30,687 bases of DNA, taken from Saccoglossus kowalevskii (lineage: Eukaryota; Hemichordata; Enteropneusta; Harrimaniidae). Made by a program: the position numbers and the translations under genes. A model generated the notes under the pieces. That model had not been told where the DNA came from, did not search any database, and was given only the letters and a program-made list of their open reading frames with translations. Shown piece after piece: positions 1,990 through 30,687 of this stretch. Position 1 is the stretch's first letter, and every line of letters starts with the position of its first letter. The stretch is taken from positions 10,089-40,775 of the forward strand of contig NW_003146300.1 of assembly GCF_000003605.2 (NCBI RefSeq), written 5' to 3'.

Positions 1990-4900
1990 GTGAGTATATG
2001 ATATAGCTGTATTTTCTTCTTTTATCTCTGAATGGTTATTTTTCCAGTAGTATTCTTTCAAAGGCTGTTTTTCCAGCATTACACTTTAGAAGACTGTTTT
2101 TTTTCAGCCTTTATAATCATTGGAAGGCTGGTTTTCCAGCAGCAATCTATTGTAGTTGTCTCTGGAAGGCTGGATTTCCAGCATATTCTCTGGAAGATTC
2201 AATTTCATGCTTTAATCTCTGATGGCTAGATTTGCAGTATTAATCTCTGGAAGGCAAGATTTTTGACTGGTCTTACTATTCAAAAAAAGAGTAAAAGAAA
2301 AATTAGTGACATTAAAAGCATTGTATGTTTAATCTCGACTGTGCACAGATTTATATTAACTAGTAAACCCAATCTGTATTGAAATACAACCACATTGCTA
2401 GCAGCTGCAATGTAACTAATTAACTGTGATGGAAAGTAGTGATACCTGCACTGTTGTCATAGTGATGGCAAGTAATATAAACCTCTTGATTATATAGGCC
2501 ATCTTCAAGTGACTGAAATTTATAGTTTTATACACATAAGTGTATTTAGTTGTAATTGAAACTGGATTGGTATATGATCAGAGATACACGGTGCTAGTCT
2601 GATGAGGTTGAGGTGGTAGATTGGATAAGTGCTATACATGTAATCAAACAGATGATTAAGTACCTCTTCCAGTACAGAATGTGGATTCAATTTACTTATT
2701 GTCTTTTTACAGACGAGTGGCAACTTCCTTTGAAGGCAAATATGGAAGAGTAAGATATTGGTTGAAAGCTGAAATTGACAAACCATGGGCTTTTAATAGC
2801 CGTACTAAAAAGGCTTTTACTGTAATTGATCATATTGATATTAATACGCCGTCATTGATGGTGAGTATCAATGGTTGATGAGATCCGCTAGCCTTGTTCA
2901 ATATTAATTATAGACATATGATTATACAGCTGTCAAATATGAATATTGTGCATATATGAAGATTTGAAATTGGTGTTTGTCAGGTTGTCAAGAACAACCC
3001 CATTTGCCATTGGACAACCAGATCTTGATTGGCTGTGCATTGGACAACCAGATCTTGATTGGCTGTGCATTGGACAACCAGATCTTGATTGGCTGTGCAT
3101 TGGACAACCAGATCTTGATTGGCTGTGCATTGGACAACCAGATCTTGATTGGCTGTGCATTGGACAACCAGATCTTGATTGGCTGTGCATTGGACAACCA
3201 GATCTTGATTGGCTGTGCATTGGACAACCAGATCTTGATTGGCTGTGCATTGGACAACCAGATCTTGATTGGCTGTGCATTGGACAACCAGATCTTGATT
3301 GGCTGTGCATTGGACAACCAGATCTTGATTGGCTGTGCATTGGACAACCAGATCTTGATTGGCTGTGCATTGGACAACCAGATCTTGATTGGCTGTGCAT
3401 TGGACAAATTGTCGACTCTTGTGTGCGAAGCACACAATGGGTGTCTTTGCGGTAAGTGTGTCTGTGTATTTGTCTGTCTGTGTGTGCGTCTGTTCCACTG
3501 ATATCTCAAGAATCAATTATCAGATTTCAATGAAACTTGGTGTATATTTGCTCTGGGTTAATGCTCAGACCTGATTATTTTTTGGTTGAAATCTGTGCAT
3601 ATTAATTACTTGTTATTAGTTTCATGTGTATTCCTTAATAATATGCATAACTGTAATGTACTAAGTACTGTTGAAGATAGGGACAAGCTATATGAATAAA
3701 ATATGACCTCATCATATATGGTCATTATTTCATTAAATATTTATAATTGTTAAACCATAGCTACTTGGAACCATCCTGATTATTGCTTGCAGTTATATTT
3801 TTAAATACTGTATTTGCTCTATTAGAAGCATGTTAGAAGTGCTTTGTGTGAAAATATAGTACAAAATGAATCATATTTCAATGATTTTGCATGCACTAAA
3901 CACAATTTTTGCTTAATGTGTATTGTAGATGTGTATATAATACAGTATTTGTACTTCATGCCTCCAATACCTTCAGCACACAGGAGTTCTTTCTAAGTTT
4001 TCTTTCTTCAATTTTTTTTTTTAGAAATCAAAATTTGTATATGCAACATTTCAATATTTGTAGTCTATTGCAGTATTATTTTACTGGAAAAAAGTTCAAT
4101 TTTAAACTTTTTGTCAATAGTGAAATTCATTGTATGTGTCTTACAAGCAGCAGCATCAAAATGTGTTTACTTATGAATTTTTTGAAACAATACTTTTGCT
4201 AAAAATATTTAGAATTCTTTTTTTTTTTCAAATCTTTCCTTGTATCACCATTCAATATTTGCCTACCCTTACAGTTAAATGTGCAAAATAATAATAGAGG
4301 GCGCCATACTGTAGATTGAGAACTACCGGCATGCTGAAATGTGTGCTGACACTATTTGAATCTATTGAATACAGCAAGGGTTCTGACATGTCAACCTATT
4401 GTATTAGTTATCTCGCATGTTTTGTTTTTTCAAAACACTTGATTTGAAAAAGTTTCACTATATGTTATTTACAGACACCTGTTGGAGGAGAAAAAGAGAA
4501 AACCGTGTGTTGCTGGTTTTGTACTTCAGGTCCGATAACCATGAATGCCCGTACTGACAGAAAAGGATACTGCCCAGGTTATTCAATTTATTATTTACTT
4601 CCTACCAAATAATCACAAGGTCTTGGTCTTTTGTAATAATGTAAATGTAAAAAAAAAGAATAATGTAAATTGACATACTGTAGTTTCCAGCAATTCCAAA
4701 GAAACATACACCCCATTTTTTTCATTTCTCTCTGATCGCTTATCAAAACACAAGCTGACAGTGTGTCAACATCTGTTGAATACTAATTGGTGATGTCAGA
4801 GAACACAATGTGATTTTCACAATTAAGATATTTTGGAATTGCTTTTGGTGGCATGCATAGTTGTGTTGTATGGACGGTAAAATTTAAGTTTGTGACACAT

Positions 4901-7900
4901 GTTTTAAAACCAAATGCTTGACACTTTTTTGTAACTTTTTTTCTCTATAATCAGGGGAATCCATTGCAATAATTGCAGAATTTGAAAACTATTCCACCAG
5001 GAGGATTACACCGAAAGCTATGCTCTTTCAACGTACTGTATTTTATGCTGGGGGAAAGTCGCGTTCTGTTCGGAACAGTGTGGCCAGTGTTCAGGGGGAG
5101 GTGATACCAGCTGGCAGAATGGCCAGGTGGGATAATAAGCTGTTGAAAATACCTGCTGTTACTCCCTCACTGATAAACTGTGGAATTATAAAAGTGGAAT
5201 ACATTTTAACAGTAAGTGTTGTATTACAACCTTGTATTTCACATCAAGATATTTTCACTGCACAAGTTTTCTATCATTTTCACTTAAATTTCATCAGTCA
5301 AATTGCATGTAAAAAAATGCTTTATTTAATCATTACTATCATTACAGTAAATATTATTCTGACTAGAATTGTGACTGTGACTTAAAAAACTACTCACTGG
5401 TCAGTGCTTTAAGGTAGCTTTAATTAGTCTGTTCATTTCAAACCAGTGCCCCTGCTTCTATGATGTGACTATGCTCTAACAGTGGTATTTCAATACATTT
5501 TGTATTTGCTCTTTAACAGTGTCTCTATAGTCAAAATATGTTATATTTTAATAAACCCAGCAAACAAGAAATGCAATTGATAGAGCCAATATTATTGTAC
5601 ACTAAGATCAATTACAAGTATCTCATTGTTTTTTTTTTCAGATTTATTTAGATATTTCTGGTGCTATGAATCTTTACCTCCATCTACCAATAGTTGTAGG
5701 TACTGTGCCACTTAGAGCACCTCCATACAGCCAGTTTGATCCATTAGCTACCTTAGGAGATGTCTTTCTTCATCTTGCCGAGAGAAATAGAATTCCACCT
5801 CCTCCTCCTGTTGCTCCAGTACTTCCACCACTCAATGAAGGTAAGCATATATATATATATGCATAAAATTGGTTACCATGGTTATGAAATAATGCAGGGC
5901 TCGAATGTCACTCATTTGCAGTTGAATGTTAAAAGCAAGTAAAATGTGGTCCAAAAGTTCTGAGTGAAATGTAATGATAGCTCATCATTTCTTTGAACCT
6001 GCACTAAAAAACGTTTTCTTAAACTTCCAGCACCTCCTAGTTACGCAGAATGTGTTTTTGGTGCCACAGATATTAGAGACAGTGAAGATAACCAGTATAC
6101 AATTGGAGATACAATGTTTACACCCATGTACACCTATGTGCATGACTACAGGTTTATTCCACCTGTACCCCCACCAGAATATTCTAGGGTAAGAATACGA
6201 ATAAGTATTAAAACACATCTAACACACATTGTTAACTTTTCTGATGCATCCATGAATAAACAGAAAATGGGATTCTCTAGGGACTGGTGGATCATATTTT
6301 ATTAATCACAGTAATTTCCAAGATAATTAACTAACTATAATAGCCTGCATCAATATAACTATGCAATCTGAACCTGGTAATTAACTTAATCTTTGGAAGG
6401 TATATACTTAGTAATAGTGATTGATACTCAAGTTTTCTCACATGCAGTGATAAAAATAAAATAAATTTTACAGGGATTTGATTAAAAACCATCAATATGT
6501 TTATAACCAAGGACGTATGAGATAAGGGCACTCAACTGATGAGTCATGGGATGAAGATCCTAATCTTGAAGTCACATGACTTGAGATGATAACAAATCAT
6601 GTATATTTATAGAAATACTGAGTGTGTCTATGAATACGTTTTTCTTGTGTATTCTTTATTATTTGCAAAGCATGCATTTTGTGCTGGTGCTTTTTATTAC
6701 CTTCGCTGTTGACTTCGTCAAGCGAAGCTCATCATATGAGTGATTGTCCGGCGTCCGTGTCAATGTTTTACTATTTCGACTTCTTCTTGAAAACTACAAG
6801 CCTGAATGCTTTGATACTTGGTGTATATGTACCTTGGGTAGGCTTCTCTTAGATTTGTTCATTTCATGATGATATCTTCAATTCTCTAATTTTGATGAAT
6901 ATTTTTGTCATTTTTGGTAAAAAGTGATATTTTCGACTTCTTATTAAAAACTGCAAGTCCAATTGCTTTGATATTACATATATAGGTACTACATGTGGAC
7001 CTCTCTCAGATTTGTTCATTTCATGATGATATCTTTAATTCTCTAATTTTCATGAATATTTTTGTAATTTTTGGTAAAAAGTGATATTTTCAGCTTCTTG
7101 TTGAAAACCACAATCATTTATGGTGAAAAATTATATTTTTGAATTCTTGTTGAAAACAGCAAGTCTCATAGCATTGATACTATGCATATTGCATATCCAA
7201 TTGCTTTGATATTACATATATAGGTACAACATGTGGACCTCTCTCAGATTTGTTCATTTTGTGATAATATCTTCAATTCTATAATTTTGGTGAATATTTT
7301 TGTTATTTTTGGTAAAAAGTGATATTTCTTGTCCAATTGCTTTGATACTATACATATTGTTCATTTTCTAATGATATCTTTAGTTCTTTAATTGAAATGT
7401 GCATTGCTAACAGCAAAGCTATCTCAGCCAACTGGCTGCTTGTTGAATTCATTGATTACTTCTCTCATTTCTGGTTCCCTTTCCAAGCATCCAGGGTGTT
7501 CTGCAATGCCATTTGACTGAAATGTACATAAGATTGATGTACACATGGTAATGAGATCTCAATCCCATATCACTGCATAGACACATACCCTTGTCTTTTG
7601 TTATTGGTATAGCATACATGACATATATGTACATTACATGTAAATGTAGACCAAATTAACCTTTGGGTGATAGATGGTTGATTTATAATACAAATCTGCA
7701 TAAAGAAAACAAATTCTATTGGGGGAATTACGGAACCATCATATTTAAAAAAAAGATAAAAAACATGAACCAACTGAAAAAAGAAAAGCCCTTGAAAAAA
7801 TTATTGAAGATAATGAAAAAGTGAAAAAAATGAGACAAAACTCATTTTAGATACTAATTCTCAGAGTTACTGTAAATGTTTCTCATCTTGGGTAAGGTTT

Positions 7901-12682: not shown

Positions 12683-15600
12683 ATTGTGGGTTGCATTGTT
12701 ATATACCAGGTTTTTCAGTCAATGTGGGTTGCAGTGTTATATACCAGGTTGTTCAGTAAATGTGGGTTGCATTGTTATATACCAGGTTGTTCAGTAAATG
12801 TGGGTTGCATTGTTATATACCAGGTTGTTCAGTCAATGTGGGNNNNNNNNNNNNNNNNNNNNNNNNNNNNNNNNNNNNNNNNNNNNNNNNNNNNNNNNNN
12901 NNNNNNNNNNNNNNNNNNNNNNNNNNNNNNNNNNNNNNNNNNNNNNNNNNNNNNNNNNNNNNNNNNNNNNNNNNNNNNNNNNNNNNNNNNNNNNNNNNNN
13001 NNNNNNNNNNNNNNNNNNNNNNNNNNNNNNNNNNNNNNNNNNNNNNNNNNNNNNNNNNNNNNNNNNNNNNNNNNNNNNNNNNNNNNNNNNNNNNNNNNNN
13101 NNNNNNNNNNNNNNNNNNNNNNNNNNNNNNNNNNNNNNNNNNNNNNNNNNNNNNNNNNNNNNNNNNNNNNNNNNNNNNNNNNNNNNNNNNNNNNNNNNNN
13201 NNNNNNNNNNNNNNNNNNNNNNNNNNNNNNNNNNNNNNNNNNNNNNNNNNNNNNNNNNNNNNNNNNNNNNNNNNNNNNNNNNNNNNNNNNNNNNNNNNNN
13301 NNNNNNNNNNNNNNNNNNNNNNNNNNNNNNNNNNNNNNNNNNNNNNNNNNNNNNNNNNNNNNNNNNNNNNNNNNNNNNNNNNNNNNNNNNNNNNNNNNNN
13401 NNNNNNNNNNNNNNNNNNNNNNNNNNNNNNNNNNNNNNNNNNNNNNNNNNNNNNNNNNNNNNNNNNNNNNNNNNNNNNNNNNNNNNNNNNNNNNNNNNNN
13501 NNNNNNNNNNNNNNNNNNNNNNNNNNNNNNNNNNNNNNNNNNNNNNNNNNNNNNNNNNNNNNNNNNNNNNNNNNNNNNNNNNNNNNNNNNNNNNNNNNNN
13601 NNNNNNNNNNNNNNNNNNNNNNNNNNNNNNNNNNNNNNNNNNNNNNNNNNNNNNNNNNNNNNNNNNNNNNNNNNNNNNNNNNNNNNNNNNNNNNNNNNNN
13701 NNNNNNNNNNNNNNNNNNNNNNNNNNNNNNNNNNNNNNNNNNNNNNNNNNNNNNNNNNNNNNNNNNNNNNNNNNNNNNNNNNNNNNNNNNNNNNNNNNNN
13801 NNNNNNGGTTGCAGTGTTAATACCAGGCTTTTCAGTCAATGTGGGTTGCAGTGTTTTATACCAGTCTTTTCAGTCAATGTGGGTTGCAGTGTTATATACC
13901 AGAGTTTTCTATCATTGTGGGTTGCAGTGTTATATACCAGTCTTTTCAGTCAATGTGGGTTGCAGTGTTATATACCAGAGTTTTCTGTCATTGTAGGTTG
14001 CAGTGTTTTATACCAGTCTTTTCAGTCTATGTGGGTTGCAGTGTTGTATACCAGAGTTTTCTGTCATTGTAGGTTGCAGTGTTTTATACCAGTCTTTTCA
14101 GTCAATGTGGGTTGCAGTGTTATATACCAGAGTTTTCTATCATTGTGGGTTGCAGTGTTATATACCAGAGTTTTCTGTCATTGTAAGTTGCAGTGTTATA
14201 TACCAGTCTTTTCAGTCAATGTGGGTTGCAGTGTTTATATACTAGAGTTTTCTATCATTGTGGGTTGCAGTGTTTTATACCAGAGTTTTCTGTCATTGTA
14301 AGTTGCAGTGTTATATACCAGTCTTTTCAGTCAATGTGGGTTGCAGTGTTATATACCAGAGTTTTCTTATCATTGTGGGTTGCAGTGTTTTATACCATAG
14401 TTTTCTGTCATTGTAGGTTGCAGTGTTATATACCAGTCTTTTCTGTCAATGTGGGTTGCAGTGTTATATACCATTGTTTTCTGTCATTGTGGGTTGCAGT
14501 GTTATATACCAGGCTTTTTCAGTCAATGTGGGTTGCAGTGTTATATACCATAGTTTGTAGTCATTGTGGGTTGCAGTGTTATATACCAGAGTTTTCAGTC
14601 ATTGTGGGTTGCCGTATTATATACCAGAGTTTTCTATCATTGTGGGTTGCAGTGTTATATACCAGAGTTTTCAGTCATTGTGGATTGCAGTGTCATACAC
14701 CAGTGTTATATACCAGAGTTTTCTATCATTGTGGGTTGCAGTGTTTTATACCAGACTTTTCAGTCAATGTGGGTTGCAGTGTTATATACCATAGTTTTCT
14801 GTCATTGTGGGTTGCTGTGTTATATACCAGGCTTTTTCAGACAATGTGGGTTTCAGTGTTATATACCATAGTTTTCTGTCATTGTGGGTTGCAGTGTTAT
14901 ATACCAGGCTTTTCAGTCAATGTGGGTTGCAGTATTATATACCAGGCTTTTCAGTCAATGTGGGTTGCAGTGTTATATACCAGACTTTTCAGTCAATGTG
15001 GGTTGTTGTGTTATATATACACCAGGCTTTTTCAGGCAATGTGGATTGCAGTGTTATACACCAGTCTTTTTCAGGCAATGTGGGTTGCAGTGTTATATAC
15101 CAGGGTTTTCAGTCAATGTGGGTTTGAGTGTTATATACCAAGGTGTTCAGTCAATGTGGTTGCAGTGTTATACACCAGGCTTTTCAGTCAATGTGGGTTG
15201 CAGTGTTATATACCAGGCTTTCCAGTCAATGTGGGTTGCAGTGTTATATACAAGGCTTTTCAGTCAATGTGGGTTGTAGTGTTATATATACACCAGGCTT
15301 TTTCAGTATATGTGGGTTGCAGTGTTATATACCAGGCTTTTCAGTCAATGTGGGTTGCAGTGTTATATACCAGGTGTTTTCAGTCAATTTGGGTTGCAGT
15401 GTTATATACCAGGTTTTTCAGTCAATGTGGGTTGCAGTGTTATATACAATGTTTTTCAGTCAATGTGGGTTGCAGTGTTATATACCAGGCTTTTTCAGTC
15501 AATGTGGGTTGCAGTGTTATATACCAGGCTTTCCAGTCAATGTGGGTTTGTGTGTTGTATACCAGGGTTTTTAGTCAGTGTGGGTTGCAGAGTTATATAC

Positions 15601-17470
15601 CAGGCTTTTCAGTCAATGTGGGTTGCAGTGTTATATACCAGGCTTTTTCAGTCAATGTGGGTAGCAGTGTTATATACCAGGCTTTTTCAGTCAATGTGGG
15701 TTTGAGTGTTATATACCAGGGTTTTCAGTCAGTGTGCGTTGCAGAGTTAAATACCAGGTTTTTCAGTCAATGTGGGTTGCAGTGTTATATACCATAGTTT
15801 TCTGTCATTGTGGGTTGCAGTGTTATATACCAGGCTTTTTCAGTCAATGTGGGTTGCAGTGTTATATACCATAGTTTTCTGTCATTGTGGGTTGCATTGT
15901 TATATACCAGGCTGTTCAGTCAATGTGGGTTGCAGTGTTATATACCAGGCTTTTCAGTCAATGTGGGTTACAGTGTTTTATACCATAGTTTTCTGTCATT
16001 GTGGGTTGCAGTGTTTTATACCAGTCTTTTCAGTCAATGTGGGTTGCAGTGTTATATACCATAGTTTTCTGTCATTGTGGGTTGCAGTGTTATATACCAG
16101 GCTTTTCAGTCAATGTGGGTTGCAGTGTTATATACCAGACTTTTCAGTCAATGTGGGTTGTTGTGTTATATATACACCAGGCTTTTTCAGGCAATGTGGG
16201 TTGCAGTGTTATATACCAGTCTTTTTCAGGCAATGTGGGTTGCAGTGTTATATACCAGGGTTTTCAGTCAATGTGGTTGCAGTGTTATACACCAGGCTTT
16301 TCAGTCAATGTGGGTTGCAGTGTTATATACCAGGCTTTCCAGTCAATGTGGGTTGCAGTGTTATATACAAGGCTTTTCAGTCAATGTGGGTTGTAGTGTT
16401 ATATATACACCAGGCTTTTTCAGTAAATGTGGGTTGCAGTGTTATATACCAGGCTTTTCAGTCAATGTGGGTTGCAGTGTTATATACCAGGTGTTTTCAG
16501 TCAATGTGGGTTGCAGTGTTATATACAATGTTTTTCAGTCAATGTGGGTTGCAGTGTTATATACCAGGCTTTTTCAGTCAATGTGGGTTGCAGTGTTATA
16601 TACCAGGCTTTCCAGTCAATGTGGGTTTGTGTGTTGTATACCAGGGTTTTTAGTCAGTGTGGGTTGCAGAGTTATATACCAGGCTTTTCAGTCAATGTGG
16701 GTAGCAGTGTTATATACCAGGCTTTTTCAGTCAATGTTGGTTTGAGTGTTATATACCAGGGTTTTCAGTCAGTGTGCTTTGCAGAGTTAAATACCAGGTT
16801 TTTCAGTCAATGTGGGTTGCAGTGTTATATACCATAGTTTTCTGTCATTGTGGGTTGCAGTGTTATATACCAGGCTTTTTCAGTCAATGTGGGTTGCAGT
16901 GTTATATACCATAGTTTTCTGTCATTGTGGGTTGCATTGTTATATACCAGGCTGTTCAGTCAATGTGGGTTGCAGTGTTATATACCAGGCTTTTCAGTCA
17001 ATGTGGGTTACAGTGTTTTATACCAGGCTTTTCAGTCAATTTTCTATCATTGTGGGTTGCAGTGTTTTATACCAGTCTTTTCAGTCAATGTGGGTTGCAG
17101 TGTTATATACCATAGTTTTCTGTCATTGTGGGTTGCAGTGTTATATACCAGGCTTTTCAGTCAATGTGGGTTGCAGTGTTATATACCATAGTTTTCTGTC
17201 ATTGTGGGTTGCAGTGTTATATACCAGGCTTTTCAGTCAATGTGGGTTGCAGTGTTATATACCAGGCTTTTCAGTCAATGTGTGTTGCAGTGTTATATAC
17301 CAGGCTTTTCAGTCAATGTGGGTTGCAGTGTTATATACCAGAGTTTTCAGTCATTGTGGGTTGGCGTATTATATACCAGAGTTTTCAGTCATTGTGGGTT
17401 GCAGTGTTATATACCAGAGTTTTCAGTCATTGTGGGTTGCAGTGTTATATACCAGAGTGTTCAGTCATTT
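12683..17470. repeat. 38-bp minisatellite with higher-order repeats, ~4.8 kb
   Basis: The unit is GGGTTGCAGTGTTATATACC followed by AGGCTTTTCAGTCAATGT, 37-39 bp. About 100 copies are visible on the two sides of the gap. Two subtypes recur: AGGCTTTTCAGTCAATG, and AGAGTTTTCTRTCATTG or ATAGTTTTCTGTCATTG. They alternate in places (13840-14500). Rare variants recur in the same order about 1.04-1.16 kb apart, for example GCAGAGTTAA at 15741 and 16781 and GGTTGTTGTG at 15001 and 16156. The 115-bp difference between the two spacings equals three lost units. The unit has no CpG and no stop in the three forward frames. Confidence 0.97.
12843..13806. other. Assembly gap (964 N)
   Basis: A run of N inside the 38-bp array, with the same repeat on both flanks. 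True array length is unknown. Reading frames crossing the gap have no support. Confidence 1.
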
Positions 17471-20005
17471 CTGCATGGCATAGCCTTAACCTGTAAGCCC
17501 TTGACTTATCTTGACAGGCACCCACCATCAATTGATTCATATTGCCGATATTAACCATTATGAAAATGCATGAATCAAGATTAGCATTAGTTGAAATACG
17601 ACTGAGTAGCCGTAGCTTATAGAATGACAAGAATTCCCCGCTGATGGTCCAATCCCTCACTGAGGTGTTTTACACGCTATTTAGCCATTTTATTTAACAC
17701 GCATATTTCCCTACATCAAAATTGTATATTATTCCAAATTATTTCATATTGCCAGTGGAACGACTCATTTGAAACATAATATCTGAGTAGAAAGGCAGCA
17801 ATGAAACTCACATATAAAAATGATTACTTGTTAGAATTAAGTAAACTGTAGGCTCAAGGAATCTTTTAAAACTTAAATAAGATGTAGTTTGGGTTAATTC
17901 TCTATCTTTGTTTTCTAATCTCTAGTATCTTTAATAAATTCAGATAAAAATATTTCTTTAATCACAATTTCCTGAACTATTCAGACGTGTCAATTGTTTG
18001 CTATTTCCATGATGTGTGTCTGCCCAAAACAACACAAGTATACAAAACAACACAAGTATACAAAATAATACAAGTTTTATTCGGGATTCTATTCAGGGGT
18101 ATTTCAAGTAACGTTTACAACGCCCCATATGCAATTTAGAAGACAGTGTTGACGTCATTACTAAGCTTCTGTAGCAGAATCGGCAAAAATTATGATCAAA
18201 TCGTCACATCCTGCGTTTTATAGTTGTGTATGCATGTAACCAGTATTACTGAATACAGAATTGAATATTTCGATGAGCTTGTGTCCTTGTCAACTTCTCT
18301 TTTCATAAAAAAACGCTTATAGCTTTAAGTGTGCACTCTAGTTAACATTGTTGTTACAAAACCACAGAATAATTGTATTTTCCTTCAGAATTTGACGTAA
18401 AAGTATTAATAAATGTGTTAAATGTTAACAATATTACATCTGGCGACAATGAGGAAGTACTATATTCGTAGCGGGTGGTTGCCGGCAGTGTCAGGTGGCA
18501 TAAATATGTGGGGTGGAGGGAACGAACCATGGCGATAAACTAAAAGTTATACTTGTACAACAGGCTATTACTAACTGGCTGATTAAATCGTTCTTCGTTT
18601 TTTTAATCAAGGAAACTTTCTACCTTCGTCACAATCTCTCTGTGGCGCGCGGCCGAAGTAGTCTGACGCACAGTCCCCAAAACGATTTGTACGTCCTTGC
18701 ATCAATTGCCACGTGTTACTATCAAAACGAACGCAGACCCACGTAAAGTAGTACAATAATGTTTCGTTAGTAGGTAATTTTGGAGTAATTATAAAGGCAG
18801 CAGCTGAAGGCAACACTGAAATGCCAACGTGGAACGAACCCCAGCATAATAACTGTGTACGCAGATCGGTAACACCATTTATCTCAGCTTCGTTATTGGT
18901 CGCACATTTCCTACGTATTGGTATGTTATTTTTTTCTGTCTCATAATTTATAGAAGCTCATGAAATTTCAATACAAATAGTTTTACTATTTCCATTATAG
19001 TGTTTTGTAAGTATGGCATGTTTTACACCTGAGTAGAGTTTCTGTACAATACGTGTCTGCATTAATTCATGGATGCCCTATTTTACGAATGTATTCAGAA
19101 GATAATTACTGATTGTGCTGTTGTGCATGCGTGCAATATACACATTTATTCTTGAACAGCCACTTCCGGGCAGAAGTCACGTAATTGAGAACTGTTTTTT
19201 TATGTATACGTTGTGTTTACTGAAATATCCCCGATGTTTACTGCCACTTTAGATGTTAGCGTTTGCCAATTTTGGTTACTATCACGAACTGTATTAAGCG
19301 TGTTTCCCAGGACTATTTTCCATTTTTTTATTTGTCTTCGCATTCCTATATACTGTACGTGTAGTTGCCCGTTATTTTGGATATGTTCATTTTTTAACGT
19401 GGCTGAACTAGGACAATGTCACTTATGAGATCAATTGTACGCGGTTCGTGCTGCCGATCTTCGCATTATACGTTGTATACTTAGATAGCGATGTACAACG
19501 TCTGTGTCTAGTTATAAGAGGTCAGGTTATCAATTGCGCCCTCTATATCGAAAAGCAATATGTCATTGAACGAGGATAATTCATTTGGTGTAACATGGAT
19601 TTCACTTCATGGTTTGACAATGCATCCTTCAATTGGTTGGTACTTTAATGCAATCTCTCTGTTTATCCCACTATGCAGTTCGGTGCAGTTTCACTGTGTT
19701 TTGCCAAGCGTTGCTCCCGTTTCTAGACATTTTTTTTTATATCGTAACTGCGCTCTCATCTTCTTCCATAAATTTTCACTAAATCTTCTATGTGCGCGGT
19801 TTAATTTTTTTTAGAGATGAAATTGTTGGCTGGTATGCAGTTTATTCGAATAAATTATACAATTAACCCTGATATATCGTCGTTTAATGAATGGTCGTCA
19901 CTTAATGTGATTAGTGGCACAGGTGTTGGGGTACATGAATGGGATGATGTTTAAGCAGACCACGCTACACCCGTGTTAACCCAATCTTGTTTTCAGATAT
20001 ACACA
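17471..20005. other. Intergenic DNA and upstream flank of the cyclophilin
   Basis: CpG frequency rises sharply here compared with everything to the left. No gene was recognised; frames at 18513-18746, 19213-19428 and 19560-19814 show no domain or plausible splice structure. CTTGTTTTCAG at 19986-19996, nine bases before the start codon, looks like a splice acceptor, so a non-coding 5' exon may lie in this stretch. No TATA box could be assigned. Confidence 0.5.
18026..18075. repeat. 18-bp short tandem repeat
   Basis: Two exact copies of AAAACAACACAAGTATAC and a third, diverged partial copy. Confidence 0.85.
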
Positions 20006-20281
20006 ATGCGTTTAAGAATACCTGCCGGTATTTTATTTGCGATGACGTGTGCTATCATTCCCACACAAGGAGGTTTCCAGGCTTACCAAAAACCTCAGTA
20101 TCTGAGGAAGAAAACAGGGCGTGACACCAGCCGTGACTTGCTAGTTACAAAGAAAGCCTGGTTTGACATAGAAGTGGACGGTAAACCAGCCGGCAGAATA
20201 GTAATAGGATTGTTCTGCGAGACAGTACCAGTGACATGTCAAAACTTTGCCGCCTTGGCCAGAGGCAACTGGAGAAATGAC
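20006..20281 (+). CDS. PPIB-like: Cyclophilin exon 1
   Basis: Signal peptide, a basic linker ([17 protein letters not shown]) and the first cyclophilin strands ([20 protein letters not shown], then [17 protein letters not shown]). It ends on a codon boundary at GAC before GTGAGT. Confidence 0.93.
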
Positions 20282-23200
20282 GTGAGTTGATCTAATATCT
20301 GTTATGTACGCCGCTCATAATTTATAAATTCCCGAATCGTCAATTGAGGGCGCAATACACAATATTTTTAAAAATGGGCGAGAGGGTACTAATGTAAATA
20401 CTTATTTCATGATTCAACAGATGTAGCCCGATGTCTGCCAGCATTGACGGGCGCATCATTGGCAACCAATGTTGATTCGGTTATGTGTGTGTGTGTGTAC
20501 GTGCGTGCCATGACTTGTACATGTCGAGTACATTATAAGCGTTGAGTACTTGCCAACCAATGAACGTTCTACATGACGTAAATCCCAAGCTGTGGAGAAA
20601 TCTACAGCCGTCGACAAAGAGCATTGAAAATAACTCCACGTACTATGCGCACCATTTCTTTTACTGATGTTTCTATTATCACCTCCTCAACCGTCACAAC
20701 TAATTATCCAATTTATATTTAATGAGTTTGTACTCTGACGTAGTATACGATCCCGGAGTCACGAATTCACCATTTGCTGCAATGTCATCTTTGTTCAGTC
20801 ATGGCATCTTGACCCAGTGTGAACCGATTACATATCATGGCTGTCGGGATACTTGTTTTTGTCCTAATTTATTGTTCTTATACCGTGATTTACGTTAATA
20901 AAATATTTTTTTTCCTCTACAACGTGTTTTTAAAATAGAAATTGAAGCATATTTTTTAATCGGCTCGCAAACAATCTGCAATACGTGGAATGTAAAGCGA
21001 ATATTGTTTATAAATGTATCTGTATACAATCATAATCATAACGTGGCTAATATAACACCGCTTACTGTATTTTTTGCGAATTTTTGTAAGATTTTGTGTG
21101 CTGTTTGGATAGTATAATGGTTGTGATAGTGAATGACTGATCGCCCACAGTGTGAAATACTACAGTAGCTATGGCGTGAGTTTTAAACCAATTTCATTAT
21201 ATATTTTTCTTGTAGGAGAAGTTTGGTTACAAAAATACCATAATTCATCGTATTGTGCAGGACTTCGTGATTCAGGCTGGCGATATTACAGTCGGAGACG
21301 GAAGTGGAGGTAAGTGGTCGATCAGCTGTTACTTAACAATCGCATATCTCGGCGCCGTCCCGCCGATCAAATTGTGGGAGGTCTATTTTATCCATGCTCA
21401 AACCGAGCCCCCCACGAAGTGTTAGCTACCGTCCCGAATGATGCGTCTTTGAGTTGTCGTATGATTATAATAATGCGTGTTATTAAAAGTTAATTTCATA
21501 ATTATAACAGTTGTAACAGTACTTATTTATATGCCTGTGTTTGCGAGAGAGCAGTAATTGCACAAGTCGGCACACCACATATCGTTGCAAAATTTTATTT
21601 ATTTGAAATGCACCGTACAATTCAGCAACTTCACAATTTCATTGACCGTACATAGAAATAATAATCCTCCCACACACTACATTTTACCATGCTAACAGTC
21701 CGCGTGTATACGCCCATGTTAAACATTATCCAGTGTATATGTATCATATTATAATATATAGTAAATAATATTCGGTAATCGTTGTCTATAAGCAACTTTA
21801 AAATAGTAAAAGTAAAATAGCTAGACGTTCCGATCAGTTTAAAACCTCATTTCAGTCTCAGTATACTTCATATTAGTTTAATACGATTCACCTAAAAATA
21901 TCTAGCAGTGTGGATAAAATACAACTATGTCAGAAGATAATGTAAACTTCATATTTTGAAATGTACGTTTCATATTCAGTAGAAAAATTTAATTTCTGAA
22001 TAAACATGTCAATTTCTTTCATATCTGTCTAGTAATAGGTGATGCCATAATAGATAAAATAAAGTGTGATATAACTTGACAATCTCACTCAATAGTAACA
22101 ACCAACCATGTACAGTGTTTTACGTCATCTCTATTATTTGTTATTTTTGAACTTTCTTATTACAACATAATGAAAGGAACATGTTAATGATAACTGTACA
22201 CCAGCTCTTCAACGACCGTTCTAGTTAGATTGCAATGTGTTTTCGTGTTTAGTAATGCTTTAAAAAGTTACATTGTTAATTCCCGATTCCATACAAAGAC
22301 TTCTAGAACTCTCGTTCTTAAGACTCTGGATTTTCTAATTCGCGCCTTATTATTGTACTTTTAATTATGACTGTTATAAGTTATGGAAGTTAAAGTTGCA
22401 AAGCCACTCGCCATGTTCTATAACACTACATTGTGAATATTGTTCAGAAATATCGGTGAGCCTTCACCACCACATGTATGCACATCGGTGTTGACTAATT
22501 CAGTCAGTAAGTTGTTGTGGCCGTTATTTGTTGCTAGCTGGTTTGGCAGTGAATGAATTTGATTGTTTGTTGAAGGTTGACCTTTAAAGAGGCGGAGTTG
22601 TCACCTGCGCATGCGTCGGATGGCTATAGCGTGTCATTGTTTACAAACAAGCGTCTACCCATGAACCTTTGCGTTTTTAGCGTGTGTTGTTATTGTCGCT
22701 TGGGACTCAATTCCTGTGCGTGCGCAGGGGACGAACCTCCCGCTTTAAGATGAAAGTATTTTAACACTGTCCCATCTCCAGTCTAGAATAAAGCGACACC
22801 TATGTTTTCTGCCAACAGTCTCTCAAATTTAATGTTCGATGTTTAATCAGAAAAAAATCTTATGACATGGTTTACAGTATTTCTGAATTATAAGTTTACA
22901 TTTTAAAGAAAATAGAATACAAATGTATAAGTTTTAGGCAAATTAGTGCAGTAGCCTGTTACTGGCTGTCATAGACTTAAATATTCACATCAAAACAACA
23001 TACATCATCCAGGAAAGTGGATCTATTTAACAATTCGTATCTGCCTTTTCAGGCAAGTTAGTCAATCTTTCCAGGAAGGTCGATCCATTCAAATTCGTAT
23101 CTGTCTTTCCAGGAAAGTAGATTTATTTAAATTCATATCTGTCTTTCCAAGAAAGTAGATCTATTCAACAATTCGTATCTATGTTTTCAGGAAAGTTGAT

Positions 23201-24219
23201 CAATTTAACACTTTGTATCTATCTTTCCAGGAAAGTCGATCTATGGGCCTTACTTCATGGATGAAAATTTTTACTTAAGTCACAATGGACCGGGGTGGGT
23301 TTCCATGGCAAATTCTGGTCCGGACACGAACAATTCTCAATTCTTTATCACATTAAACACGGCCAGGTGGTTGGATGGTCAACATGTGGTTTTTGGCAAG
23401 GTAATCGAAGGAATGGTAAGTCAGCTAAGTTCAATAATGTATTATGATGCTCTGATCAGACGTGTGTGCATACATGTTAACACTGTATACGGTGTGTTTG
23501 TTCCATAGGACGTCTTGTACAAACTCGGCGATTTACAAGTAACTAAATACGCATTTCCTAAAAAAACTGTGCGATTTTCAGACACGGGAGTAGAGCACGT
23601 GGAAAAGCCTTATGTATTAGAGTTACCTGCTAAAAAGTAAGTTTTTTTTTTATAATAAAGTAAAATCATTTATTTTCACTGACATTTAATTTTAATATTT
23701 TGATGTTTTGAGCATATTCACTGGATTTTAATTTCATGAATTTATCAACGAAATAATGAGTGTTATTGTTATTTACATGTTCACATAGATTTAATAGAAT
23801 AATTAATGCAAACTGTACTGATCGTCCCCTTCTTACTCTTGTCGTGCTTTGCTATTCACTACACTACACTACACTACACTACACTACACTACACTACACT
23901 ACACTACACTACACTACACTACACTACACTACACTACACTACACTACACTACAATACAATACACGACACGACACGACACTACACTACACTACACGACACG
24001 ACACGACACGACACCGTGCGAACAAACGTATGAATGAATTCATGCCCGTTGTCTATATGTTTTTACACTGACACAATGCAAAACTAGTTCCTCTATATCT
24101 AATCTTCATCAGTTTTGTGAATAAATGATATGAATATATATGGTATAATTTTCACTCATTGTCACTGTGTTTTTCTACATAACATTAGGTCGCCTGAGCC
24201 GAAGAAGAAAAGTAAATAG
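20006..24219 (+). CDS. PPIB-like: Secretory-pathway cyclophilin (peptidyl-prolyl isomerase B-like), complete
   Basis: Join 20006-20281, 21216-21309, 23231-23415, 23509-23636, 24189-24219; 237 aa. Cyclophilins catalyse proline cis/trans isomerisation and act as folding helpers; the signal peptide ([18 protein letters not shown], cut near residue 25) places this one in the ER or outside the cell. The domain spans about 46-220. Catalytic/ligand residues are present: R104, F109, Q112, A150, Q160, F162, W170 and H175 (CypA R55, F60, Q63, A101, Q111, F113, W121, H126). [24 protein letters not shown] and VEKP match the CypB type. Oddities are V110 where CypA has M61, QAGD instead of QGGD, and a C-terminal SPEPKKKSK tail without a KDEL-type signal. 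An in-frame GTG at 19973 lies before the acceptor-like TTTTCAG, so ATG 20006 is the start. It is convergent with the Trunk-like gene. Confidence 0.95.
20282..21215 (+). other. Cyclophilin intron 1
   Basis: 934 bases, GTGAGT to TTCTTGTAG. It holds a short TG/CG-rich tract near 20485-20506. No exon or mobile element was recognised. Confidence 0.8.
21216..21309 (+). CDS. PPIB-like: Cyclophilin exon 2
   Basis: 94 nt encoding [20 protein letters not shown] then [11 protein letters not shown]. It carries the catalytic arginine and the F/Q pocket residues and ends one base into a glycine codon. Confidence 0.95.
21310..22583 (+). other. Cyclophilin intron 2, left part
   Basis: AT-rich intron DNA with normal CpG frequency. 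I see no exon, RNA gene or clear repeat in it. Confidence 0.6.
22584..22748. mobile_element. MITE-like foldback element with TTAA flanks
   Basis: A 165-bp segment bounded by TTAA at 22584-22587 and 22745-22748. The 28-bp ends are imperfect inverted repeats (19 of 28 match), starting AG(A/C)GG inside the TTAA and sharing CCTGCGCA(T/C)GC. TTAA duplication is typical of piggyBac-type and related MITEs. The core is GC-rich relative to the intron. There is no coding capacity. Confidence 0.45.
23009..23245 (+). repeat. ~39-bp tandem repeat containing the exon 3 splice acceptor
   Basis: About six diverged units of CGTATCTGTCTTTCCAGGAA followed by AGT-GATCTATTTAACAATT. CAG or AAG ends lie at 23012, 23052, 23074, 23112, 23151 (CCAAG), 23190 and the real acceptor at 23230. 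Successive intervals are 40, 22, 38, 39, 39 and 40 bp. The last unit overlaps the first bases of exon 3 (GAAAGTCGATCTAT), so repeat and exon share sequence. Confidence 0.85.
23231..23415 (+). CDS. PPIB-like: Cyclophilin exon 3
   Basis: 185 nt encoding [20 protein letters not shown] then [20 protein letters not shown] and the [19 protein letters not shown] block with the W and H pocket residues. Phase 1 in, phase 0 out (GTAAGT). Confidence 0.96.
23509..23636 (+). CDS. PPIB-like: Cyclophilin exon 4
   Basis: After TTGTTCCATAG it encodes [20 protein letters not shown] then [20 protein letters not shown] and AK. Reading through the donor would give an immediate TAA (AAAAAGTAA), so either splicing or intron retention ends the protein within about ten residues. 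Confidence 0.9.
23856..24013. repeat. (ACTAC)n pentanucleotide microsatellite
   Basis: About 19 perfect ACTAC-type pentamers to about 23951, followed by ACAAT and ACGAC variant pentamers, in cyclophilin intron 4. It leaves all three forward frames open; these frames are not genes. Confidence 0.98.
24189..24219 (+). CDS. PPIB-like: Cyclophilin exon 5
   Basis: After the acceptor AACATTAG, the exon completes a lysine codon and adds SPEPKKKSK and a TAG stop. The short basic tail lies beyond the PPIase fold; its role is unknown. Confidence 0.8.
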
Positions 24220-24288
24220 ACCAGGGACATATTTTTGTTTTATAATTCATCACAGTCGCTTAAAGCAGTATGATTGTAATCATTTTAA

Positions 24289-24302
24289 AATAAATAAATA
24301 AA
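24289..24302 (+). terminator. Poly(A) signal of the cyclophilin
   Basis: Three overlapping AATAAA hexamers (24289, 24293, 24297), 70 bases after the stop codon. Confidence 0.75.
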
Positions 24303-25851
24303 TTGGGCTAATATTATAATTACGTTATTCATGGATTTTAGACACTGTGCAACATGATGCCACATAACAGCGAAACAATGTGTGTTTGTGAACGCCAAAG
24401 CGTCTAGTTAACAAACACGCGTGTTGATATACACACATGCGCAATGACATGCGGGTACGTACTATTAATTCAAAGTGCATGCCCTATGAAATACGGGTAC
24501 GTACTATTATTTCGAAGAGCGTTCGTATTTTGTTGCGTAGTGCATCGTCATATGAATCACATATCTTATGCAAACACATTTTGCCAGTTTACAACAAATC
24601 ACAATCCCGTATATTTAGAATGATTATAATTATGACGTCACAGTTGTTGGTATCATGTACACCGGCTTACTTAGAACACGCGAACATACTGACTTAAATA
24701 GAGATATGCTGACATATTTATTATACAGAACTTAAAACCTTTTTACAAACTAAATGAGCATTATATGATTGATGTTTGCATTGGTTGGTGTACATGTCCA
24801 GAGTAGTGCACATCGACTCGGAAATTTCCTTTAAAAATAACCTAAATGCACAATTCAAATAAATTGCAGCGCCTCGATTCTGTGATGTAGAAATGACGTA
24901 TATAGATGAAGGCAATGCCATTCAAATCGACAAGTTATTCGTCACCTACAACAATATAGTAAAATCTCTCAAAATGTAATATCCATTGATGGATGACTAC
25001 AGATCATAACAATGATTACTTCGCAGACGCACGTCGACACCAGAGGGCGCAATTTACAGAATAAGTGTATTAAATCCGTTATAAATCGTGCAAATAGAAA
25101 AAACATTGCCGGCCTCGTTTGGCAAATTCCGTCCTGCTAGACAACTGGTTCATTGAAATAAACAACGATGTCAAATAATACTCCAAAATAGTATGGATAC
25201 TGAGAAATACAGACATCCAATAATTAAATATATTATTTACATCAGTTTCAATTAGTATTTCACGCAAATAAATAACAAATAACTGAAATTAAAATAAGCA
25301 AAAAAAGTTACTATGGTGCTTAAGGTTAAATGTATTATCTTCAAAAATAATATTGAATGCTGGAATATATGAATTATGCAATATCAACTTTTCCAGCAGT
25401 GGCCATCTTTGTCTGAAAAGGAACAACTTTGTTGTTACTATGTATATGAAGTACATGCGTATTTGTGCATGTTGCCTAGCAACAGGGAATACAGAATAAT
25501 AATTAGTTTATTATTAGGACATCCTTCACAAGTTACTATACATGTAACTATAGCGACGTCGATATTGTCGGGAAGCTGTCGTCCAAGGGAACACGACATA
25601 GTCAGACACAAGTCGCATAAATTTAGTATGGAAATTTTGATGGGCTTCGATTTGTAATTGAGTGTGCTAAGACCAAATCACGATAGCCTACGTAAATTGT
25701 AAAATGCGGATCGTTTCCATGGTTTAATATTCGTATTATTCTCAGATAATCATGATGTATCCTACAGTAACCGTGATGTATTTATAGTAACCGTGATCGC
25801 CCAAACAATAAATGAAATGAAACTAGTACGAAGAAGTTTTCCACTAAACAG
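24303..25851. other. Convergent intergenic region
   Basis: It lies between the 3' ends of the cyclophilin and the Trunk-like gene. It includes a 41-bp duplication around CGGGTACGTACTATTA (about 24453 and 24494). On the minus strand an AATAAA (TTTATT at 25507-25512 on +) lies about 340 bases after the Trunk-like stop. Frames at 24437-24697 and 25376-25657 look random. Confidence 0.5.
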
Positions 25852-26484
25852 TCAATCGTTTCTTCCACATTCGCAAGCAACCGATATAGTATAGTCCATC
25901 TCTTCCCAATCTTCTCCATCGTTAAAAAGGCGTTTCAATACTTTGACAGTCACTTTGACAGACTTGCATGTGAAATGCCCGTAGTAACAGTTTTCTTGAG
26001 TACACTTTGTAACCTGCATGTATCGTGGAAATATGTCAGGTCCAAGAAACTCCCATTCCTTTCTGTTTCTACAATGCCATGGCAAAGGCTCGTTTGGATG
26101 AGGAACGCGAAAACTCGGTCGTTTCTGTAACTTGTTTTCACCATGTTTCTCTATACTCCCCGAGTTGTACGAATGTCCCGATGTTAAATTTAAGTTTGGG
26201 TTTGTAACTTGTTTATGAAAGTCATTTTCATCGACATAAGCGACTGCTACGGGGTAAAATGAAGCTATAATGTCTTTTAATTTTTTGTTCGATAAATTTA
26301 GATTGGACTTGCCACTTTTCATTCGATCTCGACTCCGTCCGTGCATTGCCGCCTGTAGAACATCTACAAGTGTTTTCAGTCCGCCATCTTCATTCTTTGA
26401 TTGCGTCAGAATGACGTCGTTAATGACGTCATTTCCTGTGCTAGAAGCAGCACACTGGCTTGAAACGAGCAGTGTCAGCGTCAC
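25852..26484 (-). CDS. trunk-like: Trunk/PTTH-like (noggin-like) secreted cystine-knot protein, main exon
   Basis: Open frame of 210 residues ending in TGA (25854-25852). The first codon, GTG at 26484, follows a minus-strand acceptor CTTTTCAG, so the start ATG is in an upstream exon. VTLTLLVSSQCAASS at its start looks like the end of a signal peptide. Next come a hydrophilic pro-region with N-x-S/T sites at residues 63 and 99, and a dibasic KR (121-122) suitable for convertase cleavage. The C-terminal domain reads WHCRNRKEWEFLG, FPRYMQVTKCTQENCYYGHF, TCKSVKVTVKVLKR and ACECGRND. Cysteines are at 138, 161, 166, 173, 204 and 206. The PRY-x3-x2-C-x4-C-YGH-x2-C pattern and the CxC end are those of insect Trunk and PTTH, the Torso ligands, and resemble noggin. 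Family membership is clear; the receptor and role in this animal are unknown. Confidence 0.85.
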   Translation of the reverse strand: MTLTLLVSSQCAASSTGNDVINDVILTQSKNEDGGLKTLVDVLQAAMHGRSRDRMKSGKSNLNLSNKKLKDIIASFYPVAVAYVDENDFHKQVTNPNLNLTSGHSYNSGSIEKHGENKLQKRPSFRVPHPNEPLPWHCRNRKEWEFLGPDIFPRYMQVTKCTQENCYYGHFTCKSVKVTVKVLKRLFNDGEDWEEMDYTISVACECGRND

Positions 26485-26746
26485 CTGAAAAGTACAAACG
26501 AGTGTATTAATGTTAAAATTGCGCTGTTCACATTTGTTAGAGTGCCACTCATCATCGTGCCCTTTCGGAAACTTGAAAATCGTATTAAATGGCCTAGGTA
26601 TATTAATATCATCTCAAAATAAATATGCTTTATTTGATTTTCAATTTGCTAAGTCTATTTCTTCCATCAGCAAACTGTGCGTATGCTTTATTGGTTTTTG
26701 GTCAATAATTGAAAGGCCAATTGATGTATATTAAAGTGATTGAACA

Positions 26747-26896
26747 ATGGCATTAGAGCGTTTACCACATACGTTTCCAACGACAGTCTGCTATTTTACG
26801 CTGATTATGTACAGTGTCTGCGGCAACATAGGTGTGTGCGTAGGAAGCTATGAGTGTTATTTAATAGAAGACAACCCATCTAAGCCGAGTACCCAC
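26747..26896 (+). CDS. Possible first coding exon of an unknown gene
   Basis: An ATG in ACAATGG context opens 50 codons (MALERLPHTFPTTVCYFTLI, then a cysteine-rich hydrophobic stretch, then DNPSKPSTH). They end at a good donor, CAC before GTAAGT, and intronic TAA follows in frame. The hydrophobic part (about residues 14-33) could be a signal peptide or membrane segment. I recognise no family and found no second exon, so this may be chance. Confidence 0.22.
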
Positions 26897-29039
26897 GTAA
26901 GTTAATTTTACACGTGGAGTGTTGCAATGAGTGTTTTGTTGGATTGCTATTAGCTAAAGGCATGTCCGGGAAAGCCTAGTCACCGACGTGTTTGAATTCA
27001 ACCACACTATCGGGCACAAAGCAGTTGTCTGGCACTCTAGTACCTGTAATAACGCAATACTAGAGTAAATCTCCATTGACTTTAAGAATGCTTTTCCGGA
27101 GATCATTTTGAAATACAAAGTAAAATAGTTTAAATATATATACATATATTTCAACACATTAACTATGTACACTATAGTGGCGCTTTTCAATAAATTGCCG
27201 CCATTTACGTGAACACGCTCTGACGTGCGAATACTAAGTACATTCCCCATTTGACCACATATTTTCCTTTCTGCCCAATACTATGAACTTAATGGGCTAT
27301 CACGAATATCCTAAATTAGTCAAATACATTGCAAGTTAGCCCATTAAATTTCTATTTTTAAAAAGTCATCAGCGCTTAACCACTTGTATGAGGCACGTGG
27401 CTGTCACTGGCCAATTGACGTAAACTTCTACAGATACATTCCCAATATGAATCAATGGAAGTGGCAAGCTTTATTAATAGGTAATACGTTCTTTTAAACT
27501 CGAAGGTGAGTTTAGTAACAGTCAATTTGGTTAGCATAATATGGTTCTTTAATGTGATTAGGGATGTTTAAGTCGTGTATTTTGAATTTCCGATAGACGT
27601 TTCTAATATAACGTGAAACATTTGCAATCTTTCCTTTCTCTGAGAGAAAATAGTGTTAACATATGCGTAATAAATCCCGAACATGGGCCACCATTTAAAA
27701 CGCGCCAATTAGCACTGCTGTGAAGAAAAATCTTGCAAAATTTATATTTCACGCATAAAAAAAAAACTAATACAGAAATAAACATTGTTGACTTTATCCA
27801 CGAGTATTTCGTACAGATTGCCGATGGCTTTAGTACTGAAATAAATTGTTATTAATACTATATTATAATATTACCTGGTTCTATTGAATCAGCTTTCTAT
27901 ATCTTTGTTATAGCTATTGAAAAAGCAGAGTGCTAGAGTGATAAACGTTTACCGCGGTTTGTGTGGGAGAAATGGATATCATTGAAGTGATGACACGTAC
28001 TATATGAATTTTAGTGCCTATACGCAGCGAAAATCAGCGCAGTTTTTCAATTGGGCAGTGACGCGGTTTTATATTTCATTAAATGAGCAAAGGAATAAAG
28101 TAGTGTCTGGACATAACATACACTGACTTAAAGAAAGTCAGAGACAATGTAGCACATGGTTATTATCCACATGGTTGATTACACTAAATGCAAGAAGTCA
28201 CTTTAGTAATCACGCGGTGTTGATTAACACACGCCACCAGTTTGATACAACAGTATACCGGATGTACATTCAATTATTGTTTGCAGTAAAACACTATACA
28301 CAACCACATGTTGCACGCGGTTCATGTCAAAATGTCGCGTCGCATCAATGTTTTTTTTAATTATTATTTAGGAATATATTTGTAAAATGACCCTTTCTTT
28401 GTGGATGTATTTGAGTTCAAGGACTTTTTCACATGAATCATAATTTTGCAGAATCGGTAACCATAGTAACTACATGATACATCTATTTTCCAAGACGGTT
28501 GTATAATCTCCCCATTTAATGAGTAGTGTCATTTAAATGACCAGGTCAAATCACTTACCAGTTCAATTATTACACGCCTTTGTTATTTAAAACGTGTTTT
28601 TTTCATACGAGTACAAATGTTAAGCCAACACATCGGTATTAACGTGACAGACAATTCCATGATAATACCTTTATCGTTTGCGAGATTGACCCTTTTAGGA
28701 CAAAATACAATACGGCATGGCAACGCACAAACAACTAGTTTCTAAACCAATTGTTTTCCAACATATAGTTGTTAAAGGCATCAAATGCCTCCATTAAATG
28801 CACATAATGATTCAATTACGACAGCTGATTAACTTTAATTAAATTACCGTAAAAATACCAAGTGATGGCCATTGACGTTAATATACAGAGATGATTTATT
28901 TTATTTTCTACGTTTAAATAAAGACTGTATGCTCTAATAATTAGGATGACATTGTCTCCTTGGTTAAACATTGAATCACTATTTGGTGGGTTTTCATGTA
29001 ATGGGACATTAAATATCATCAAAAATGTTAATTAAACAT
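26897..29039. other. No recognised gene
   Basis: CpG-normal, AT-rich DNA. Frames at 26954-27250, 27603-27785, 28175-28360 and 28816-29022 lack recognisable domains. The start of the 27785-27603 minus frame could be the missing Trunk-like signal-peptide exon (see findings), but its donor is weak. Confidence 0.5.
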
Positions 29040-29501
29040 TTTGGTAACACCGCAGATTTAATTGGCGACATCACAAATTTAATTGATGGCATCACAAACT
29101 TCATTGGTGGCAGCCCAGAATCAATTGGTGACGTCATGGGTTTCATTGGTGGCACCACAGATTACTTGGTGAAATCACGAATTTAATTGGTGGCACCACA
29201 GATTACTTGGTAAAATCACGAATTTAATTGGTGGCACCACACGATTAGTTGGTGAAATTACGAATTTAATTGGTGGCATCACACATTGAAACCGTTACAT
29301 CACATATGTAATTGGTGGCATCACACATTTAATTCGTGGCGTCACATATGTAATTGGTGGCATCACACATTTAATTCGTGGCATCACAAATTTAAATCAT
29401 GGCATAACAGATTTAATTTGTTGCATCACATATGTAATTGGTGGCATCGCAGATTTAATTCGTTGCATCACACATTTAATTTGTGGCATCACACATTTAA
29501 T
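29040..29501. repeat. 21-bp minisatellite, ~22 copies
   Basis: The unit is close to ATTGGTGGCATCACACATTT plus A. Nearly every unit is exactly 21 bp, with two of 20. Subtypes alternate in places as 42-bp dimers (ATTGGTGGCACCACAG then CTTGGTGAAATCACG). A 7-residue-periodic open frame (WHHTFNS type) results from the 21-bp period and is probably not a gene. Confidence 0.93.
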
Positions 29502-30497
29502 CTTCATATTAACGTAGTAGTACTTATTCAACGTTTAGGTTTGACTCAGTTTTCAACATGAAGCTTGATACCCCCACATACTACACACGAGGCTGGGCAC
29601 TATAAATAAATGCATAGTACAATGATACAGACTAGGTTTCAATCCAGGTAACCTTGTGCATATTACTAACGGCAACCGGGTATCCATGACAGGAATGCAC
29701 GTACACAGATCACGTGAAATTGCACTAATTTATTAGGCACAATAGCGTGGAGATTGTTCTATAGAGAGTGATGACGTTCTATCGTGGATGAAAGTGACGT
29801 CACGCCGGGAACCTCATATCCTGAAAGTATTCACATTAAATCAGTCTGCAATTGGACTGTTGACGCTGTATTTGGTTTACGAGACCAACAATTGAGCGAT
29901 CTTTCAACGCAGGTTTAATCATATATAATAAAACAAGCCTTTTGGAAATGTTGGCAGCTGTTTAAATGCACCGCGTGTATGTACATTAGTAGAGTTTTCA
30001 AACACAGCCAAACATTTCACCACTTTAAGCAAACTGTGTGGGGGCGATGGAGTATAATAATATCCCTATGTACGGGGAAAAGTATTACCGTAATTTTATA
30101 ACGGGATCTAAATCGACATACAGATAAAGCGCTTAGAGAAGTGTAGTGCGACTGCAGCAGGTTTTTACCAGATATTACAGCAGGATAATTGACGAGACAT
30201 GCTAGCACCGATACATATAACACTTACACAATGGTAGTAGGTTGTCGTAGGCTTTGGTGACCCTCCTACTACTACTTTTTAGATAACGCAATAAGTGTTG
30301 TCTATTGTGATGTGGTGTGCCTATGTATATGCAACAAGCCACAAGTCATGTTTAAGCAATAAATATACACTATTATTTCTAAATGAATGGATAAATTCAT
30401 TGTTTTCATTCAACCCAATTTAATTATAAGCGAATCCAGTTAATTTTATTCAGTTTGACGTGGAATTGACACGATCGTCTTTGTTCATACGTATCGG
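29502..30497. other. No recognised gene
   Basis: Unique-looking intergenic DNA. GGTAGTAGG near 30233 and CCTACTACTA near 30266 could pair as a hairpin. No coding exon or RNA gene was identified. Confidence 0.5.
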
Positions 30498-30605
30498 ACG
30501 TAACAGACTGCAATTTATCTACGTAATGGACTGCAATTTATCTACGTAACAGACTGCAATTTATCTACGTAATGGACTGCAATTTATCTACGTAATGGAC
30601 TGCAC
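30498..30605. repeat. 23-bp tandem repeat, 4.7 copies
   Basis: Units of ACGTAAYRGACTGCAATTTA plus TCT start at 30498, 30521, 30544, 30567 and 30590. Two subtypes (AACAGAC and AATGGAC) alternate in the first four. Confidence 0.95.
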
Positions 30606-30655
30606 TGGAACAAAACGGACTCCAAAGTATATGTGTCGCAACAACGGGTTCCAAT

Positions 30656-30687
30656 CAGTGGCGGATCCAGCGGGGGGGGGGGGGGGG
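30656..30687 (+). mobile_element. Possible DNA-transposon terminus and poly(G)
   Basis: CAGTGGCGGATCCAG (30656-30670) resembles the CAGTGGCG-type terminal inverted repeat common in hAT-like elements of animals. It is followed by C and a run of G to the window edge. The element body, if any, lies outside the window. Poly(G) at the end may also be an assembly or sequencing edge effect. Confidence 0.35.

Follow-up and report, generated by a model that had tools for sequence, protein, structure and literature searches.

A probable Trunk gene in the acorn worm Saccoglossus kowalevskii, read from its main cystine-knot exon

INTRODUCTION

Does an open reading frame of the acorn worm Saccoglossus kowalevskii encode a ligand of the Trunk/PTTH family, and would such a copy outside the arthropods change the view of how old that family is? 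The frame lies in a stretch of 30,687 nucleotides of contig NW_003146300.1, which was analysed as a whole and is called the window here. Insect PTTH and Trunk are reported to signal via Torso (PMC9071555). PTTH proper, the insect moulting hormone, is considered insect-specific, and trunk has been reported from hemichordates, amphioxus, many lophotrochozoans, corals and a ctenophore, with Torso receptors in deuterostomes (PMC6660194, de Oliveira et al. 2019, where Jekely 2013 is cited on non-arthropod Trunk). Xenoturbella has been added to the trunk list (PMC11521371), and further reports cover nemerteans, brachiopods, phoronids, molluscs and the oyster (PMC8557429, PMC6425005, PMC8398477).

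The second half of the question is therefore already answered in print: because trunk reaches a ctenophore, the family is older than the bilaterian ancestor on the account given in PMC6660194. An earlier sequence-only reading of this DNA held that the copy informs the age of the Torso-ligand family, an expectation overtaken by that publication of trunk across Metazoa; the exon does not change the published answer. It is a real Trunk/PTTH-type ligand gene in a phylum from which trunk was already known, and it is ordinary because Trunk outside arthropods, hemichordates included, had been described (PMC6660194). The name Saccoglossus is absent from the main text of that paper. In the accessible portions of the literature on hemichordate and Saccoglossus PTTH, trunk and torso, including PMC3675644, no experiment on this gene was found.

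THE EXON AND ITS GENE MODEL

The gene model comprises the following features.

25852..26484, minus strand: last (main) coding exon of a Trunk/PTTH-type precursor (open frame, splice acceptor, translation)
26485..26499, minus strand: 3' splice acceptor with pyrimidine tract, GTTTGTACTTTTCAG (sequence reading)
25723..25728, minus strand: candidate poly-A signal ATTAAA (motif only)

A stop-to-stop open frame of 253 amino acids runs from 26613 to 25852 on the minus strand. The exon start was placed at 26484 because a splice acceptor lies there and the frame holds no methionine 5' of that position. The junction reads GTTTGTACTTTTCAG/GTGACG (near end TTTTCAG/GTGACG) and sets the exon at 26484-25852, which amounts to 210 codons and a TGA stop. 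Acceptor and stop thus return, on the minus strand, the coordinates at which the sequence-only reading had placed a ligand exon. The exon translation is referred to as P0001; the acceptor's CAG supplies its residue 1 (Q). Downstream, the candidate ATTAAA lies 126 nt 3' of the stop-codon start, and an AATAAA at 25512 follows at 342 nt.

The assembly that was searched holds 572,110,611 bases in 4830 contigs. Among the best candidates scored, a six-frame query with the exon gave one genomic match at E<=0.001, namely itself. Parts of the contig examined beyond the window read N.

A start-methionine exon was sought as any ATG-to-GT exon joining in phase to VTLTLL within the 4203 bases upstream. Three rows were returned from two donors, with starts at window position 29615 for one and at 27106 and 27076 for the other. 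In nine control stretches, each 3648-4203 bases long, such rows numbered 1, 0, 3, 4, 2, 5, 3, 4 and 6. Since the controls range from 0 to 6, the upstream candidates are no better than chance, and those at both donors were rejected; no start-methionine exon was identified in the 4203 bases, none of the candidates rising above the nine controls. This null result is what speaks for taking the exon as the remnant of a pseudogene or as an open frame that arose by chance. We consider that explanation most improbable: the frame runs unbroken between acceptor and stop, all six cysteines of the knot are kept, and its 253 codons exceed the longest frame in every one of 200 dinucleotide shuffles of 17601-30687 (mean of the longest frames 123.7, maximum 202).

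SETTING IN THE WINDOW

Two other genes, both on the plus strand, were seen in the window, and neither has an evident link to the Trunk-type exon. Exons of an arrestin-domain protein occupy 4951-6302 (Arrestin_C at 4951-5382, E=8.7e-15). This gene's open frame at 5997-6302 is without a Pfam match and carries PPSY and PPEY motifs. A cyclophilin-type prolyl isomerase with a hydrophobic leader has its exons at 19955-23505, with PF00160 found in 19955-20287, 21216-21422 and 23209-23505.

Tandem repeats were noticed as well. Positions 1-997 are filled by a 22-base unit repeated about 45 times and rich in G on the plus strand, and a 30-base unit is repeated 13.3 times at 100 percent identity in 3008-3407, an array that is open in several frames because its unit is a multiple of three. 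A 38-base unit, which also shows up as units of 76 and 114, forms a large array across 12685-17467; within it, 964 bases in a row are N (12843-13806). Strand skew is strong at 14-17 kb of the window.

LAYOUT OF THE PRECURSOR

Three parts can be told apart within the exon.

26119..26484, minus strand: probable signal-peptide end and propeptide (two N-glycosylation motifs; hydrophobic start)
26119..26124, minus strand: Lys-Arg, candidate convertase site before the knot (P0001 residues 122-123; predicted cleavage)
25855..26118, minus strand: 88-residue cystine-knot domain (cysteine pattern, PDB and Pfam comparisons)

The exon begins with hydrophobic VTLTLLVSSQCA, and P0001 accordingly opens with hydrophobic VTLTLLVSSQCAASS before the propeptide. 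Judged from this hydrophobicity, the exon start is probably the end of a signal peptide. The earlier claim that the exon carries the precursor from the signal-peptide end onward is made plausible by this opening, and the part of it that would need the start-methionine exon is left without its counterpart upstream. The family precursor is described as having a signal peptide, an N-terminal domain and a proteolytic site ahead of the knot (PMC8398477). Of this layout, the propeptide and a dibasic site are present: N-glycosylation motifs stand at residues 64 (NLS) and 100 (NLT), and the Lys-Arg at 122-123 precedes the knot, as had been read before. The knot domain itself contains another KR, at residues 185-186.

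Six cysteines fit the knot, at P0001 residues 139, 162, 167, 174, 205 and 207. The motifs that had been named as FPRY, YGHxxC and a CxC end recur as FPRY, YGHFTC and a terminal CEC, so that the exon product has a C-terminal six-cysteine knot ending in CxC as in Trunk and PTTH. The cysteine pattern applied in this comparison combines the general pattern of the family with the PTTH alignment described below. A single-sequence AlphaFold model of the knot domain had a mean pLDDT of 43.7 and is uninformative.

SIMILARITY TO PTTH, NOGGIN AND IL-17

Compared with 177635 distinct PDB sequences, the knot domain had a single match at E<=10, the PTTH chain 5aoq_L (E=0.0013), which we take to be Bombyx PTTH. 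The whole exon matched PTTH at E=0.0078; three further rows, with E from 0.054 to 1.6, belonged to unrelated proteins. Local alignment of the knot domain to the matched PTTH stretch scored 76. Full shuffles reached a maximum of 51 (n=5000), and shuffles with the cysteines held fixed reached at most 59, with 0/5000 attaining 76. Because cysteine-fixed shuffles never reach the observed score, the likeness to PTTH exceeds what cysteine spacing alone would give, and it constitutes similarity to a named family member beyond the cysteines. The Trunk/PTTH identity proposed from the letters alone is borne out to the extent that PTTH is the sole PDB match of the domain and that the six cysteines fit the knot.

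Profile searches, suggested earlier as a check, gave a divided answer. Neither the exon nor the knot domain had a Trunk or PTTH match in Pfam, and the two families that did match, Noggin and IL17, scored below their cut-offs. The absent Trunk/PTTH match and the sub-threshold Noggin and IL17 matches are the main result against a clean assignment.

In Pfam, the knot domain matched Noggin (PF05806) best (E=0.00025, 21.4 bits), which raises the alternative that the exon encodes a diverged Noggin, or a BMP antagonist like Noggin: an extracellular BMP binder that activates no kinase receptor. We also count for Noggin the motif W..LG....PRY, common to the exon product and vertebrate Noggin. The score lies under the cut-off of 24.1 both for the knot domain and for the whole exon (19.2 bits), and the match covers no more of PF05806 than positions 132-210 of 211, so that the first 131, on the side of the BMP-binding clip, go unmatched. 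The exon therefore shows neither a curated PF05806 score nor the N-terminal part with the clip. The first exon sought upstream could supply only what lies before 26484. Noggin structures exist in the PDB, and the search at E<=10 matched PTTH and no Noggin chain; moreover, a long propeptide and KR precede the knot here, unlike in Noggin. An aphid Noggin-like protein is reported to have both activities, BMP block and MAPK activation (PMC9071555), which counts towards Noggin. On balance, we judge a Noggin identity unlikely.

A second alternative, a divergent cytokine of the IL-17 family, takes its case from a Pfam match of IL17 (PF06083) to knot-domain residues 27-85 (E=0.00051, 20.8 bits), from a tie between IL17 and Noggin on the whole exon (both E=0.0012), and from the IL-17 fold being of the same class as the Trunk/PTTH knot. 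The IL17 scores nevertheless fall under their cut-off of 24 (20.8 bits for the knot domain, 19.6 bits for the whole exon). The match begins past the first knot cysteine, a residue that the exon product has, and no IL-17 chain was matched in the PDB at E<=10, where IL-17 structures exist. An IL-17 cytokine is thus a very improbable reading of this exon.

HEMICHORDATE CONTEXT FROM THE MITOCHONDRIAL GENOME

The genome style had been called non-insect, and the mitochondrial genome of the assembly, which is of hemichordate type, agrees. A mitochondrial contig of 17,037 bases was found via COX1; cox1 was named by that search, the other genes by eye from their translations, and tRNAs by ARAGORN. The order is cox2, atp6, cox3, nad3, nad4L, nad4, nad5, cob, trnP(-), nad6(-), trnF and a presumed rRNA region, followed by nad2, nad1 and then cox1 on the opposite strand. 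Thus nad5 adjoins cob, nad6 is on the minus strand, cox1 is inverted and nad2 stands ahead of nad1. Tandem repeats with a 191-base step occupy 16243-17037 of this contig and were seen as repeated translated stretches at its end.

Codon meanings were read against the best-matching PDB COX1, 7o37_a. Nine of the 10 ATA codons of cox1 fall in the part compared, in columns where 7o37_a has Ile (5/9), Val (2/9), Leu (1/9) or Met (1/9). The cox1 AAA codon aligns to Lys, and the remaining mitochondrial AAA sites look to us like Lys sites. Eight mitochondrial open frames together hold 6 AGA codons and a single AGG, which sits ahead of the likely cox3 start. Published accounts place nd5 beside cob in hemichordates and Xenoturbella and give ATA as Ile in hemichordates and echinoderms (PMC2697986). 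For Saccoglossus kowalevskii itself, AUA is reported as Ile, AAA as Lys, AGG as absent and AGA as Ser, with COX1 inverted and ND1 or ND2 moved (PMC3121625). Because gene order and codon meanings match this published description, the context is hemichordate and not insect, most likely that of S. kowalevskii or a near relative. A lancelet source was rejected, since neither the mitochondrial order nor the ATA usage fits one; a search for the GFP family likewise gave no match, although its controls gave none either.

PROPOSED FUNCTION

Very probably, the exon belongs to the acorn-worm Trunk gene and encodes a secreted precursor that is cut at Lys-Arg to yield a knot ligand, most likely for a Torso-type receptor kinase. 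By analogy with the family, the precursor would enter secretion through its signal peptide, and a convertase cut after Lys-Arg (122-123) would free the 88-residue cystine-knot ligand, in which three knot disulfides would form. The mature ligand may then act on a Torso-type receptor tyrosine kinase and, through it, on the Ras/MAPK cascade.

Receptor-type kinases are present in the assembly. The kinase family PF07714 has at least 114 genomic matches at E<=1e-10 (best 142 of 521 candidates scored), and a motif scan of 30 loci and 20 short regions among the PF07714 matches found receptor types, including what we take to be one FGFR-like and one RET-like kinase; none of the 114 matches was assigned to Torso. 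Two kinase genes resembling each other, on contigs C4444 and C3461, have HGDLAARN in the catalytic loop in place of HRDLAARN; judged from this loop, these kinases are possibly weak or inactive.

A fly trunk mutant is reported to be rescued by aphid Noggin-like 2 as well as by aphid PTTH, and aphid Noggin-like 1 to combine BMP block with weak MAPK activation (PMC9071555). Because the latter does both, the exon product may have a BMP role too. By extension from the aphid case, the hemichordate ligand might even retain the two functions of its ancestor, activating a Torso-type kinase and restraining BMP signals, and might control developmental transitions or the ends of the axis in a deuterostome that does not moult; we regard this as quite unlikely. 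If read correctly, the exon is an experimental handle and not a discovery, and it could help to show whether the ancestor of Trunk and Noggin had a single function or two.

COMPARISON WITH KNOWN SYSTEMS

One close comparison is with PTTH (5aoq), to which knot-domain residues 13-70 align, including LG....PR[YF]. The first two knot cysteines are 23 residues apart in the exon product and in PTTH alike, whereas the second-to-third spacing is 5 in the exon product and 8 in PTTH, and the third-to-fourth 7 and 6, respectively. Where PTTH has PCTC, the exon product has PWHC, so that Trp takes the place of the cysteine that PTTH has two residues ahead of its first knot cysteine. This cysteine just before the PTTH knot, the first of PCTC, joins the two PTTH chains; a dimer of the acorn-worm ligand, should one exist, would therefore have to be held differently. 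PTTH also ends in CxC, beyond the point at which the printed alignment stops.

Noggin (PF05806) resembles the exon product in its C-terminal knot region, where the match is below threshold, and differs in that the propeptide and KR belong to the exon product and not to Noggin. Oyster precursors are described as carrying, besides the cysteine-rich part, an extra peptide with potential dibasic sites (PMC8398477), likewise found here; they come from another phylum and are likened by description. With the Trunk proteins of non-arthropods (hemichordates, amphioxus, annelids, molluscs and others), likened through the phylum list published in PMC6660194, the exon product has in common a C-terminal cystine knot of Trunk/PTTH type.
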